Shown: positions 14,201 to 19,622 of the stretch, in pieces
Layout of the letters: each line of letters begins with the position of its first letter
Position numbering within the stretch: position 1 is the stretch's first letter
Source of the DNA: Pontibacter aydingkolensis
GTDB lineage: Bacteria; Bacteroidota; Bacteroidia; Cytophagales; Hymenobacteraceae
Length of the DNA: 64,000 nucleotides
Reading direction: 5' to 3'
NCBI RefSeq assembly: GCF_019443125.1
Contig: NZ_JAHYXK010000004.1
Span: 124,001 to 188,000 of the forward strand
Made by a program: the position numbers and the translations under genes
Notes under the pieces: generated by a model
The model's input: only the letters and a program-made list of their open reading frames with translations
The model's database searches: none
What the model was told of the DNA's origin: nothing

Positions 14201-15364
14201 TTATCTAACAAGAATCTTTTTAGTATGATAACGCTTGCCCTGCGCCACCTGCAAAAAGTATAAACCTTTTCCGAACGGTGTCAGGTCTATCTGGCGGCTG
14301 TATTCTCCGTTCAGCTTTTCTACTGTGTCTACAAATACTTCCTGCCCTTTGCTGTCCAGCACGCGCACCACGGTGGTTCCTTTATTTTCAGGCTTAAACC
14401 TGAGGTTAAACCGGCCATCATTCGGGTTAGGGTAATACTTGATCTGCTCCAGCTCCAGTTCCTCTTTTGGTTTGGTCTCTACGGGTGTGCCCGTCTTTTT
14501 TAGTGCCGAGATGTCTTCAGCGGTCATATCCTGCACAGTTACTTCCCGAATAAATATGGCAACTGTTTTGCCTGGCTGCAATGCTATTCCGCGCAGCATA
14601 CGTTCTTCCCCGGCCTCACCTATTCTGAATATGCGGTGTACACGGGCACTGTCGTTTGCGATGATTCTATAGGTAGTTTTACCATCTGACTTGAACACCA
14701 GTGAGTCTACTGTAACATGTTTGGCGTTTTTGTGGATGTAAATACGCTCAGCTTTTGCAGGGCTCAGGACCGCGAGACTGTCTACCCTGCTAAATCGCAA
14801 TGCCTTAATGCTATCGCCCTGAATTCTGAACATTGCCTTGGGAGCAGCACCTTCTATTGTATACGCTTTGAATTTTGGAGCTTTGGCTACTCTCCCGATA
14901 GCCATGGAGCTAAGGCTGTCTCTTGCAAGTACTTTCAACTTGCCACTCTGGAGCAAAACATTAAGTATGCTGTCGTCTGGGTGCGCGGCAAGCTGTTTTA
15001 TAAGTACTTCACGCTCCGCTTCGGTTAAATTTTCGCTAAGGCGCATCACCCTGAACTCCTTGTTTTTGGCTTGCCTCGGTTTTGTTTCAAACACATGGGT
15101 ATCGAATTTTCCAGTATGTAGCTTCCTGAATGCGGCCGTATCTACTTTTAAACCTGAAAAGCTCGGTATTGACATGGCAGCACCTGTTACTATAATAGTG
15201 GTGTCTTTTACTGTTTCTACCCCGTTTATATTTTCGATATACTTAATACGGAGTTTTTTCTCGGTTTTAGGGGCTTCCTGCGCCACAATTATGTGTAATG
15301 GCAGCAGGGCCAGCAGCAGGCTAAGTATAAACCTGATAATGTTCTGAAGTGTAGTAATATCCAT
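14201..15364 (-). CDS. Secreted protein with type A T9SS sorting domain
   Basis: A 387-aa exported protein. The N-terminal hydrophobic stretch ending in HIIVAQ is the signal peptide. The last ~75 residues are a type A sorting domain (YYPNPNDGRFNLRF, VRVLDSKGQEVF, GLYFLQV, KKILVR). The ~250 residues between them match no family I recognise. It is divergent from the histidine kinase gene at 15627, and a phased GTTAAA array lies between its -7 element and that gene. This makes it a likely direct target of the two-component system. Confidence 0.85.
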   Translation of the reverse strand: MDITTLQNIIRFILSLLLALLPLHIIVAQEAPKTEKKLRIKYIENINGVETVKDTTIIVTGAAMSIPSFSGLKVDTAAFRKLHTGKFDTHVFETKPRQAKNKEFRVMRLSENLTEAEREVLIKQLAAHPDDSILNVLLQSGKLKVLARDSLSSMAIGRVAKAPKFKAYTIEGAAPKAMFRIQGDSIKALRFSRVDSLAVLSPAKAERIYIHKNAKHVTVDSLVFKSDGKTTYRIIANDSARVHRIFRIGEAGEERMLRGIALQPGKTVAIFIREVTVQDMTAEDISALKKTGTPVETKPKEELELEQIKYYPNPNDGRFNLRFKPENKGTTVVRVLDSKGQEVFVDTVEKLNGEYSRQIDLTPFGKGLYFLQVAQGKRYHTKKILVR

Positions 15365-15390
15365 GATACCCTGTTTTATTTTGATGTACT

Positions 15391-15398
15391 CAAAGGTA
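15391..15398 (-). promoter_or_regulatory. -7 element TACCTTTG for the T9SS cargo gene
   Basis: A full TAnnTTTG match on the minus strand, 26 bases before the start at 15364, giving a leader of about 20 bases. The GTTAAA array at 15421-15464 begins 23 bases upstream of it, an activator-like position. Confidence 0.6.
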
Positions 15399-15420: not shown

Positions 15421-15464
15421 GTTAAGGCTACGTTAAAGTATGTTAAAGAAAAGTTAAAGTTAAC
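15421..15464. promoter_or_regulatory. Phased GTTAAA array 1 (probable regulator-binding sites)
   Basis: Hexamers GTTAAG, GTTAAA, GTTAAA, GTTAAA and GTTAAC start at 15421, 15432, 15442, 15453 and 15459. The first four are spaced 11, 10 and 11 bases, one helical turn apart, as in direct-repeat boxes of OmpR-family regulators. The 17-mer GTTAAAGAAAAGTTAAA (15442-15458) recurs exactly in array 2. Confidence 0.6.
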
Positions 15465-15550
15465 AACAGGCGTACCTTCTACTGCCCGGCAATGGTATGC
15501 AAGTATACAAGCCAATCATAAACAGATACTTACAAACAGGTAGCGTAATC

Positions 15551-15587
15551 GTTAAATTGAGTTAAAATGCGTTAAAGAAAAGTTAAA
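15551..15587. promoter_or_regulatory. Phased GTTAAA array 2 (probable regulator-binding sites)
   Basis: Four exact GTTAAA hexamers start at 15551, 15561, 15571 and 15582 (spacing 10, 10 and 11). The array ends 28 bases before a TAAATTTG element (15615-15622) and 40 bases before the kinase start, mirroring the position of array 1 relative to the other promoter. Autoregulation by the linked response regulator is the simplest reading. Confidence 0.6.
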
Positions 15588-15614: not shown

Positions 15615-15622
15615 TAAATTTG
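15615..15622 (+). promoter_or_regulatory. Candidate -7 element TAAATTTG for the kinase gene
   Basis: A full TAnnTTTG match ending 4 bases before the GTG start. Transcription starting about 7 bases downstream would fall at or just after the GTG. The mRNA would then be leaderless, or translation would begin further in (ATG at 15663), or this match is fortuitous. Confidence 0.4.
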
Positions 15623-15626
15623 TTAA

Positions 15627-17849
15627 GTGAGCAAGAATGTAATAATCGGAGTGCTGGTGCTGATGAGCATCTCTCTGCTGGGCGTGGTAGGTTTGCAGCT
15701 CTATTGGATAAACGATGCCATACAGGTAAAGCAGGCAGAGTTTGACCGCAGCGTAAACGAGGCACTGGCCAAAGTAGTAGAGAAACTCGAAACCCAGGAG
15801 GCTGCCAATGTGGTGGCAAATCAGTTTGCAACACTGCAAAGCGACTCATCTGCTTTTAACTCTGTCAAAGCAGAAGCAATACCTACTAGTTCTTCTGAGT
15901 CAGTAAAGGTCGGTAATAAAGAAACACCTGCTGCAAAGCAAACTGCCAAAGCTGCTCCAGCGGCAAGTATAGCTGGAGCAAAAAAAACAGAAGCAGATAA
16001 GCCAAGAGAGCGCCAGGGCGACAAGGAGCATGAAAGTAATAAGAGTTTTACAATTGAGGGCAGCGCTTCAGCTCCGAAAAAAGATGTTCGCTTATACTTC
16101 AGCAAAAGTGACTCCGTTAAAGTAAAGCAGGCATTAAGGGATTTAAGCGGTACTAGGAAAACCATAGTCCCATCAACTATAAACGGCAATGCTACGCAAT
16201 ATCAGCGCCTGTCACCCTCCGGTTCAGAATCTCTTAGTGTGGCCCACCTGCGCAAGGGCAGTGTATACCAGTTAGAACAGGTAACTGATACAATCAAGTT
16301 TTTCAGAATGGACAATAGATCTGTCAGGATTTCTGTGGATACGCTTAAAACAATGGCTTTCAGGATGGATAGCCTGCTACGCTTAAGTAAACGGCCAAAC
16401 AAATTCCGCCCAGTAGAGATTGCCTCCATAGACGTACGGAACGACAGTATTTTTATCACTAAGGGAGATAACTCAAAGCCGGTTTATGTAAACCATAATC
16501 CTTCCATTCAGCATACTGGCATGCCTGTTACGAAAAACAGGACCTACTCCAGGAGCCTGCAACATACCGCAGCGGAATCTGAAACACATTTTTTTAAATT
16601 TTATGCACCTACGGCTACCTCTCCCGCCACTGCAAGAACCTTTTCCCATACTAAGGATACCATACAGGCTGTCATTAAACCTCTGAATCCGGCAAGGGTA
16701 CCTAACAAGAAAACGAATGCTTCTGCCATCAGCAAGATCGAGGTTAAAAAGGACATGCTTAACGATGTAGTACAGAAAATGGTAGTAGAGTATGTTGTAA
16801 AAGACAAGCCACTGCAGAAACGCATGAACCTGCAAACGTTACCAAACCTGATTCAATCTGAGTTGGAAAACAAAGGCATAAACCTTGATTTCGGATACTG
16901 GGTAGTAGCCGGCAAAAACGACACCGTAGCCGCCAACAATTTACAGCCGCTAAAAAAGCTCCATCTGCCAAAGTATAAAGCCAGCCTTTTCCCGAACGAC
17001 ATCTTTGACAAGCCCGATTACCTTGGTTTATACTTTGCCGACAGCCGTACGTATGCCATAAAATCGCTTTGGGGAATGCTTTCGCTTTCTGCCCTATTTA
17101 CGCTGGTAATGATCGCCACTTTTGGTACCACCATCCATATTATCTACAAGCAGAAGAAGCTGTCGGAGATGAAGAACGACTTCATCAACAACATGACGCA
17201 TGAGTTTAAAACACCGATAGCCACTATCTCGCTGGCGACTGATGCCATCTCTAATCCAAAAATCTACGAGCATCCTGAAAAGGTACAACATTACACCAGC
17301 ATCATCAGGCAGGAAAACAAACGCATGAATGTACAGGTGGAAAATGTGCTGCAAATTGCGCAGTTAGAGAAAAATGACTTTAAGCTGACCTTTAAACCTG
17401 TGGATGTGCACATACTTATTACCAAAGCCATTGAAAGTATACGCCTACAGGTAGAAGAACGACTTGGCCAGATAAACATACAACTCAACGCCCTGCAGCA
17501 CGAACTTAGCTCTGACGAGGTGCACCTTTTCAACGTGATCTGCAACCTGCTGGATAACGCGAATAAATACTCTCCTTCTACGCCTGAGATAAACCTGGTA
17601 ACGCAAAATGTGGATGGCGGGCTTCTGATAGCTGTGGAGGACAAAGGCATGGGCATGAGCAAAGAAACACAGCAGCGCGTTTTCGATAAGTTTTACCGCG
17701 TACCAACCGGCAACCTGCACAATGTAAAAGGCTTTGGCCTCGGCCTGAGCTATGTAAAAGCCATCGTGCAGGCACATAAAGGCAACGTACGCCTGAAAAG
17801 CGAACCCGGAAAAGGCAGCCGTTTCGAGATATTTTTACCGTTAAGCTAA
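15627..17849 (+). CDS. Sensor histidine kinase, RprX-like
   Basis: A 740-aa membrane kinase. Helix 1 covers about residues 5-27 and helix 2 about 477-500, enclosing an unusually long periplasmic region of ~450 residues. That region is rich in Ala, Lys, Ser and Thr at first, then beta-like, with no family I recognise. The cytoplasmic core is complete: H-box NNMTHEFKTPIATISLA, N-box NLLDNANKYSP, G1 DKGMGMS and G2 GFGLGLSYVKAIV. The start chosen is GTG, which gives MSKN before the first helix; the next Met (15663) would cut the helix short. The OmpR-type regulator at 18027 is the partner. The core resembles RprX of Bacteroides. The GTTAAA array upstream suggests autoregulation. Confidence 0.88.
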   Translation: MSKNVIIGVLVLMSISLLGVVGLQLYWINDAIQVKQAEFDRSVNEALAKVVEKLETQEAANVVANQFATLQSDSSAFNSVKAEAIPTSSSESVKVGNKETPAAKQTAKAAPAASIAGAKKTEADKPRERQGDKEHESNKSFTIEGSASAPKKDVRLYFSKSDSVKVKQALRDLSGTRKTIVPSTINGNATQYQRLSPSGSESLSVAHLRKGSVYQLEQVTDTIKFFRMDNRSVRISVDTLKTMAFRMDSLLRLSKRPNKFRPVEIASIDVRNDSIFITKGDNSKPVYVNHNPSIQHTGMPVTKNRTYSRSLQHTAAESETHFFKFYAPTATSPATARTFSHTKDTIQAVIKPLNPARVPNKKTNASAISKIEVKKDMLNDVVQKMVVEYVVKDKPLQKRMNLQTLPNLIQSELENKGINLDFGYWVVAGKNDTVAANNLQPLKKLHLPKYKASLFPNDIFDKPDYLGLYFADSRTYAIKSLWGMLSLSALFTLVMIATFGTTIHIIYKQKKLSEMKNDFINNMTHEFKTPIATISLATDAISNPKIYEHPEKVQHYTSIIRQENKRMNVQVENVLQIAQLEKNDFKLTFKPVDVHILITKAIESIRLQVEERLGQINIQLNALQHELSSDEVHLFNVICNLLDNANKYSPSTPEINLVTQNVDGGLLIAVEDKGMGMSKETQQRVFDKFYRVPTGNLHNVKGFGLGLSYVKAIVQAHKGNVRLKSEPGKGSRFEIFLPLS

Positions 17850-18026: not shown

Positions 18027-18725
18027 ATGAACATACTACTTGCCGAAGACGACCCTAATTTTGGAATAGTGCTGCGCGATTACCTGGAGCTGCATGATTA
18101 TACTGTTACGCTTTGCAAAGACGGCTGTCTGGGTATTACAGCTTTTCGAAAGGGCAAGTATGACCTGTGCATTTTAGATGTGATGATGCCGGAAAAGGAT
18201 GGCTTTACGCTTGCCCGTGAGATAAAGAAACTAGACCCTGCCACCCCGCTTATTTTCCTGACGGCCAAGGCCATGAAAGAAGATATGCTGGAGGGTTTTA
18301 AGATAGGTGCCGACGATTATATTACCAAACCATTCGACTCTGAGGTGCTACTCTACAAAATAAAGGCAGTATTAAATAGAAAGTTACCTACCAAACCAGA
18401 GCAGAAAGAGCAAACTGAGTTCACCATCGGTCAATATCATTTTCAGTCCAGCTTGCGCATACTTTCCAGAAACGGGACAGAAGAAAAGTTATCACCAAAA
18501 GAAGCCGAGTTGCTTAAAATGTTGTGCCTGCACCTGAACGACGTGCTCCCCCGCGACCTGGCTCTGGAGAAAATCTGGAATGAGGACACTTACTTTACTG
18601 CCCGAAGTATGGATGTGTACATCGCCAAACTACGCAAGTACCTGAAGCACGATCCTGCTGTAGAGATCATAAACATACACGGCCGAGGCTATAGGCTTTG
18701 CGTGCACAATGGTGTGATGCTATAA
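18027..18725 (+). CDS. OmpR-family response regulator, RprY-like
   Basis: A 232-aa DNA-binding response regulator. The receiver (about 1-120) has EDD in LLAEDDPNFG, the phospho-acceptor in LCILDVMMPEKDGF (about residue 52), Thr in FLTAKA and Lys in YITKPFD. The C-terminal winged helix (about 135-230) has KLSPKEAELLKMLC and the recognition region RSMDVYIAKLRKYL, ending in IHGRGYRLCV. It is the partner of the kinase 177 bases upstream. Regulators of this family usually bind direct repeats spaced about 11 bp, which fits the GTTAAA arrays at 15421 and 15551. Confidence 0.92.
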   Translation: MNILLAEDDPNFGIVLRDYLELHDYTVTLCKDGCLGITAFRKGKYDLCILDVMMPEKDGFTLAREIKKLDPATPLIFLTAKAMKEDMLEGFKIGADDYITKPFDSEVLLYKIKAVLNRKLPTKPEQKEQTEFTIGQYHFQSSLRILSRNGTEEKLSPKEAELLKMLCLHLNDVLPRDLALEKIWNEDTYFTARSMDVYIAKLRKYLKHDPAVEIINIHGRGYRLCVHNGVML

Positions 18726-18986: not shown

Positions 18987-19622
18987 ATGAAAAAATTTTT
19001 ACTTTTTGCACTGATTTGCGTTACATTGGCAAGCTGTGGCCCTGAAATTTACCAGGCAGCCTCATTTAAAGAGGTTAAAAACACCCACAAAACAGTAGCG
19101 ATTATGCCTTTTGACGTTACTATCGAATCCAGAAAACTGCCTAAAGGCGTTACTCCGGAAATGATACAGGACCAGCAGCGCGACTATGGCTACGGCATAC
19201 AGAGCGATGTTTACGGTTACTTCCTGAAGGAAATGAGCAAGAACAAGTACACTGTTAACTTCCAGGACGTAAGCAAAACAAACGCTATCCTGAACAGCTA
19301 CGGTATCAGTTACGACGACCTGCGTTTAAAGTCTAAAGACGAGATATGCCAGCTTTTAGGCGTTGATGCAGTGGTATCAGGCAAAGCGATGATGAGCAAG
19401 CCTATGTCTGACGGCGCTGCTATAGCAGTTGGCTTACTTGTTGGGGCCTGGGGACCTACAAATACAGTAAACACTACCATCACCATTCACGAAGGTAGCG
19501 CAGGCGACCTGATGTGGAAGTATGATTACCAGGCATCTGGCAGCATCGGTAGCAGCAGACAGTCGCTTACTAACGCTTTAATGCGCAACTCATCTAAGAA
19601 ATTTCCTTACAAGAGATCTTAA
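18987..19622 (+). CDS. Lipoprotein, CsgG/GNA1162-like fold suspected
   Basis: A 211-aa lipoprotein with signal peptide and lipobox LASCGPE (lipidated Cys about residue 17). After it come KTVAIMPFDVTIESRK, a helix region (YGYGIQSDVYGYFLKEM) and LLGVDAVVSGKAMMS, then a glycine-rich hydrophobic stretch and a beta-rich end. This order (VAIMPF strand, helix, DAVVSG) recalls the CsgG/LpoB/GNA1162 group of periplasmic lipoproteins. The assignment rests on pattern only. A strong terminator follows. Confidence 0.7.
   Translation: MKKFLLFALICVTLASCGPEIYQAASFKEVKNTHKTVAIMPFDVTIESRKLPKGVTPEMIQDQQRDYGYGIQSDVYGYFLKEMSKNKYTVNFQDVSKTNAILNSYGISYDDLRLKSKDEICQLLGVDAVVSGKAMMSKPMSDGAAIAVGLLVGAWGPTNTVNTTITIHEGSAGDLMWKYDYQASGSIGSSRQSLTNALMRNSSKKFPYKRS

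Follow-up and report, generated by a model that had tools for sequence, protein, structure and literature searches.

Within a 64,000-nucleotide stretch of the Pontibacter aydingkolensis genome (contig NZ_JAHYXK010000004.1, positions 124,001 to 188,000; here termed the window and numbered from its first letter), two arrays of helically phased GTTAAA-type hexamers lie between a T9SS cargo gene and a two-component operon, and these arrays are very probably the operators of the OmpR-family response regulator encoded at 18027, which would most likely activate both its own kinase/regulator operon and the T9SS-exported protein. The initial annotation of the locus had already supposed that the linked regulator controls its own kinase and a secreted protein, and this is supported by the conservation of the arrays in related genomes, by relocated and unlinked copies of them and by their recurrence before homologous kinase genes in many Bacteroidota, from which we infer binding by the regulator. 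Published EMSA of Porphyromonas gingivalis RprY with its own promoter (PMC3646045) and DAP-seq of Riemerella anatipestifer PhoP (PMC9603813) are in keeping with such binding. To our knowledge, few regulators of the Bacteroidota have a defined operator code that is tied to promoter position. In the present case the operator code, its spacing from the −7 element and the candidate targets can all be read from sequence, and an RprY-like system is linked to exported proteins.

Organization of the locus

The features of the locus are collected in Table 1. Both arrays lie on the plus strand between the minus-strand cargo gene and the plus-strand kinase gene. The initial annotation had described each as four or five hexamers at 10–11 bp; the arrays are real and hold four boxes each, but only three of those in array 1 are exact GTTAAA, and the supposed fifth element, the adjoining GTTAAC, is out of helical register and is found in only two of 22 full arrays, those of this genome (L014) and of L015. 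An exact 17-mer, GTTAAAGAAAAGTTAAA, is common to the two arrays as had been stated (15442-15458 and 15571-15587), and the distance of 23–28 bases given between each array and the TAnnTTTG element of a divergent gene proved close, the exact values being 22 bp on the cargo side and 27 bp on the kinase side. Each array thus holds at least two same-strand repeats at 10–11 bp, the tandem direct-repeat arrangement of an OmpR/PhoB-family operator.

Table 1. Coordinates of the two arrays, the promoter elements and the flanking genes in the window
Feature	Position	Strand	Description
T9SS cargo gene	14201..15364	-	Secreted 387-aa product bearing a T9SS type A sorting domain at its C-terminus; predicted target
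Cargo −7 element	15391..15398 (15398-15391)	-	TACCTTTG; 22 bp from array 1
Array 1	15421..15458	+	GTTAAG at 15421, GTTAAA at 15432, 15442 and 15453 (GTTAAG-N5-GTTAAA-N4-GTTAAA-N5-GTTAAA); spacing 11-10-11 bp; same pattern at relatives' kinase loci
GTTAAC adjoining array 1	15459..15464	+	6 bp after last box
Array 2	15551..15587	+	GTTAAA at 15551, 15561, 15571 and 15582; spacing 10-10-11 bp
Kinase −7 element	15615..15622	+	TAAATTTG; 27 bp from array 2
Sensor histidine kinase gene	15627..17849	+	740 aa; large region followed by HisKA and HATPase_c
OmpR-family response regulator gene	18027..18725	+	RprY-like; putative recognition helix RSMDVYIAKLRKYL

The phasing, rather than the hexamer, is what is enriched. 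Single GTTAAA occurs 67 times in the window (62.7 expected), and GTTAAA-N3..6-GTTAAA occurs five times (0.18 expected), a number reached in none of 100 shuffles. A search of the whole genome for GTTAAA-N4/5-GTTAAA, which the initial annotation had proposed as a way to define the regulon, returned 13 occurrences against one for the reversed pattern. An unlinked GLPGLI-family gene, considered below, has an array in all six of its orthologues. Two of the other single pairs lie inside mechanically called reading frames (L003, L006), and such pairs are probably in part due to chance, the reversed control itself giving one.

The cargo protein has the two marks of a T9SS type A substrate, a sorting domain at residues 311-386 (PF18962, 50.8 bits; TIGR04183, 46.1 bits) and a signal-like N-terminus, the latter judged by eye, and no other Pfam or NCBIfam domain was found in it. 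A proposal that it mimics the sensor region of the kinase was rejected, homology between the two having an hhalign probability of 3.3%. The regulator has the receiver (PF00072) and winged-helix (PF00486, Trans_reg_C) domains of its family. Its best NCBIfam match is the RprY equivalog NF051850 (309.7 bits, E 1.1e-92), which falls below the curated cut-off of 370, and so the label RprY-like, already used in the initial annotation, is apt. The ArcA model gives only 106.6 bits against a cut-off of 334, which places the protein outside that family, and SaeR is absent among the 13 solved-structure sequences that match it at E≤1e-20. Downstream of the regulator, at 18987-19622, is a lipoprotein-like gene of 211 aa with no Pfam or NCBIfam match, which is perhaps part of the two-component system.

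Promoter elements and their spacing

Start sites mapped in Flavobacterium psychrophilum place TAnnTTTG at −12 to −5 (PMC9723704). On this scale array 2 is predicted to span about −76 to −40 of the kinase promoter and array 1 about −72 to −35 of the cargo promoter, of which they are the probable operators. Transcription of the kinase gene would then start right at the GTG codon (15627), and that of the cargo gene is predicted to start near 15386. That GTG lies 4 nt past the −7 element at all 23 kinase loci of the genus, so a leaderless kinase mRNA is predicted; at the Rufibacter-like loci described below, an ATG lies about 5 nt past the kinase TAnnTTTG. The −33 element is a TTG, and no TTG was found 15–23 bp from the −7 element in any of the 23 kinase promoters or in 19 of the 22 divergent promoters of the genus, which is weak evidence since chance would give a TTG in only a minority. 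The boxes run toward the kinase promoter, where the usual gap is 26 bp, and away from the divergent promoter, where it is 22 bp. A PhoB half site reaches about 4 bp past its hexamer on the 3′ side, and the two gaps would fit a PhoB-like half site that is likewise about 4 bp longer on that side.

Conservation in the genus and its sister genus

A search of 120 genomes of the family at E≤1e-40 found the kinase in 23 of 44 Pontibacter-like genomes, this one included. Two of six further genomes of the genus also have it, making 25 of 50, and a homologue in the named Pontibacter pamirensis record is 55% identical. A sister genus (g6) is termed Rufibacter-like from a resemblance seen at L102. The initial annotation had held that loss of the arrays in relatives that share this gene order would count against it, and both arrays and spacing are kept. 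The kinase TAnnTTTG lies 26 bp past the last box at all 23 same-genus loci (27 bp in L014-L016) and again 26 bp at all seven Rufibacter-like loci. A full four-box array is found at 22 of the 23 same-genus loci and stands in every case (22/22) exactly 22 bp from a TAnnTTTG that faces the divergent gene, so that the operon carries a conserved putative operator upstream of its own promoter, as an autoregulated operon would.

The gene beside these 22 arrays is a cargo homologue in 21 and an AhpC/TSA-type gene in one (L018); 17 of the 21 could be read to a sorting-type tail and four (L026, L027, L034, L036) are cut by the end of the locus. The Pfam sorting domain is present in all 11 homologues that were aligned and also in L295, L298 and L299. 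At the remaining same-genus locus (L019, genome G075) there are two boxes and a different divergent gene. Of the 25 same-genus loci, 12 have a single array shared by both promoters and another 12 a pair of arrays, full or partial; at the last (G075) the cargo gene lies elsewhere. The Rufibacter-like loci have a single intergenic array, some boxes of which are altered. This single copy in the sister genus points to a shared operator as the ancestral state, with a doubling in the present genome.

Relocated cargo genes and unlinked targets

A profile built from 15 array sequences and applied with strict filters (E<1e-3) matches all 25 kinase-positive genomes of the genus and none of the 25 kinase-negative ones, mostly at the linked locus. 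This co-occurrence is partly trivial because the array adjoins the kinase gene, and since the split therefore reflects mostly linkage, more weight was given to cargo genes that have moved and to targets that are unlinked.

Two rearrangements are informative. In G075 the cargo homologue is about 129 kb from the kinase and still has a four-box array upstream, 22 bp from TAGCTTTG, with the start codon some 150 nt past that element. In G052 (L295) an AhpC/TSA-type (thioredoxin-like) gene with a four-box array at 22 bp has come to lie between the kinase and the cargo gene, and the displaced cargo gene has degenerate boxes of its own, 22 bp from TAATTTTA as counted from the printed sequence. It is therefore the promoters that the arrays accompany, not the locus alone. 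The assignment of the promoter is less direct in G075 and in G103, where roughly 150-200 nt separate the cargo start codon from the −7 element next to the array (about 190 nt beyond it in G103, L035/L299).

The unlinked GLPGLI-family gene (TIGR01200, 125.7 bits) has orthologues in six of the 50 genomes, all of them kinase-positive (Fisher p 0.022, not corrected for phylogeny), and the array is present in all six in the orientation seen at the cargo gene, 22 bp (five) or 23 bp (one) from a TAnnTTTA. A second unlinked gene encodes a secreted protein that contains a carboxypeptidase-regulatory-like domain; its orthologues occur in 12 of the 50 genomes, again all kinase-positive (Fisher p 8.6e-5, also without phylogenetic correction). 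Only five of these 12 (L283-L287) have a box pair and L294 keeps a single GTTAAA, so the gene was rejected as a firm member of the regulon and is regarded as a partial target. Genome-wide, N4/5 pairs average 5.8 against 2.2 for the reversed control in 23 kinase-positive genomes, and 1.9 against 1.7 in 21 kinase-negative ones.

Box groups were also seen in other settings. In the present genome (G000) two opposed groups about 100 bp apart occur at C4:59533-59647 (L001/L002), flanked by the end of a priA-like gene and by a cupin-like gene, both named by eye, and the nearest relative, G077, keeps them (L266). Neither a promoter at the expected distance nor a frame of at least 80 aa between the groups was found there, and the region possibly encodes a small RNA or controls the cupin-like gene. 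In two relatives, similar outer-membrane-type genes, likewise named by eye, are preceded by box pairs at L261 (G117 C23) and L271 (G058 C1) and are possible further envelope targets.

Distribution across the Bacteroidota

Two wider samples were used, in both of which start codons were assigned by rule, and some upstream regions may consequently be misplaced. The first consisted of named relatives of the kinase, namely the best 80 of 576 confirmed loci, one of them from a Chlorobiota record, from which L122 was dropped for its short flank to leave 79. The second was a class sample of 40 regulator loci, picked by hand from plus-strand rows with room upstream rather than at random. In the 79 upstream regions, 45 GTTAA pairs have a period of 10 bp and 62 a period of 11 bp, and the remaining periods between 5 and 20 bp together account for 17, ten of these at 20 bp, or two helical turns. 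A 10/11-bp pair is present at 59 of the 79 loci, against 0.135 expected from mononucleotide shuffles. In the class sample, 26 of the 40 loci have a chain in the 200 bp that precede the kinase, and three chains lie elsewhere in those stretches. When the samples were combined, with two redundant loci removed and L214 excluded because its kinase was not found by motif, a 10/11-bp GTTAA chain was found upstream of the kinase at 84 of 116 non-redundant loci (1/116 for the reversed control), and 65 of these 84 also have a TAnnTTTG 25–27 bp past the last box. The strict pair is missing in 32 of the 116 regions, including three of the four loci examined among the five whose regulator exceeds the RprY cut-off, which tells against the proposed reading.

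The regulator is likewise conserved. Within the best 80 of the 576 loci, 71 hold a regulator that is 48-79% identical, and the putative recognition helix RSMDV[YF]...LRK is kept wherever a loose pattern located a helix (29 of 30 loci of the genus and the Rufibacter-like group, 34 of 40 class loci). It is reasonably likely that one operator-promoter design, in which GTTAA boxes at 10–11 bp stop 25–27 bp short of TAnnTTTG and are read by an RprY-like regulator with this near-fixed helix, has persisted since an early ancestor of the Bacteroidota as the positive self-control of a single envelope-sensing system, around which further targets such as T9SS cargo and the GLPGLI and carboxypeptidase-regulatory-like envelope proteins have been gained and lost. 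If so, sequence by itself could suffice to define the regulon in those members of the phylum that have not been cultured.

Proposed mechanism and alternatives

Each GTTAA(A) box would probably be the half site of one monomer, two boxes 11 bp apart would form a dimer site, and the four boxes of an array would accommodate two tandem dimers on one face of the helix. The arrays lie just upstream of the site expected for a −33 element, and an operator directly upstream of a promoter suggests activation, so that the bound regulator would most likely activate both divergent promoters and the system would induce its own kinase/regulator operon along with the T9SS-exported protein. In the present genome each of the two promoters has a copy of the array at its own characteristic spacing; in about half of the same-genus relatives one array would serve both.

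The same regulator bound to the same operators might instead repress the kinase and cargo promoters, which is unlikely but has precedents. RprY of Porphyromonas gingivalis, which binds its own promoter in EMSA, has been proposed to repress chaperone genes (PMC3646045), and 34 of 50 genes that are both directly bound by PhoP of Riemerella anatipestifer and differentially expressed are up in the phoP mutant (PMC9603813), so activation is not certain. The boxes, however, stop 26–27 bp before the kinase −7 element and do not lie over it, simple repression would have difficulty in explaining the strict spacing on both sides, and the missing −33 TTG lends weak support to activation. It is distinctly improbable that the arrays are bound by some other OmpR/PhoB-family regulator. 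GTTAA-type repeats are not unique to one regulator, since SaeR and ArcA read similar ones, but none of the 25 genomes of the genus that lack the kinase matches the array profile (E<1e-3), the arrays accompany the kinase operon widely, and a regulator in the identity range given above is encoded at nearly all of the best 80 named loci (71/80).

That the arrays are merely functionless A-rich low-complexity sequence, or a recent local duplication, has a negligible probability. Short A/T-rich units and an exact 17-mer in both arrays might have such an origin, but the register is kept across two genera, the seven Rufibacter-like loci have a single array, periods of 10 and 11 bp dominate in the 79 regions (45 and 62, against 17 at the others), and this conservation and fixed spacing refute the idea. 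Activation by the linked regulator from both arrays remains the preferred reading.

Comparison with known systems

Systems of this kind are already known, in the form of SaeR, ArcA, the Riemerella PhoP and the self-binding of the Porphyromonas RprY, and what appears to be new here is the breadth, the strict geometry and the secreted targets. A search of titles and opening abstracts, mostly within literature available without subscription, found no paper that describes such an operator, with its spacing, throughout the phylum.

The SaeR box of Staphylococcus aureus, GTTAA-N6-GTTAA, has the same 11-bp period, with one or two sites per promoter, and SaeR autoinduces its own operon (PMC5083920). 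SaeR nevertheless belongs to another phylum and promoter type, and its targets are Staphylococcus exoproteins. Escherichia coli ArcA likewise recognizes two to five direct repeats, mainly 11 bp from center to center, but these are degenerate and serve the control of carbon oxidation, with 74 operons directly repressed, and the available portions of that study describe no fixed promoter spacing of this kind (PMC3798270). RprXY, known from Bacteroides and P. gingivalis, is similar in that RprY is the best family match of the present regulator; it differs in that the regulator falls below the RprY cut-off and in that strict pairs are missing at three of the four loci examined above it. A term search of the accessible text of PMC3646045 and PMC6032018 found no binding motif for RprY.

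A close parallel comes from the Flavobacteriia, where the PhoPR system of R. anatipestifer also has an OmpR-family regulator and a kinase in one operon (PMC5399024). Its DAP-seq motif has the core TTTAACA, the complement of which is TGTTAAA, and ahead of its own operon PhoP occupies a stretch of 35 nt, with EMSA on its own promoter (PMC9603813). The direct targets include five GLPGLI-family proteins, the family of the unlinked gene with an array here, as well as a TonB-dependent receptor and a beta-barrel protein (PMC9603813). That paper likens the motif to ArcA, and its available portions describe neither the four-box geometry nor the promoter spacing nor a T9SS cargo (PMC9603813); the likeness is one of motif, operon layout and GLPGLI targets. 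Four Flavobacteriaceae-type loci in the present material (L159, L165, L170, L176) have regulators that are 62-63% identical and a GTTAA pair upstream of the kinase. The self-binding of RprY in P. gingivalis and the PhoP motif of R. anatipestifer may be views of one conserved system.
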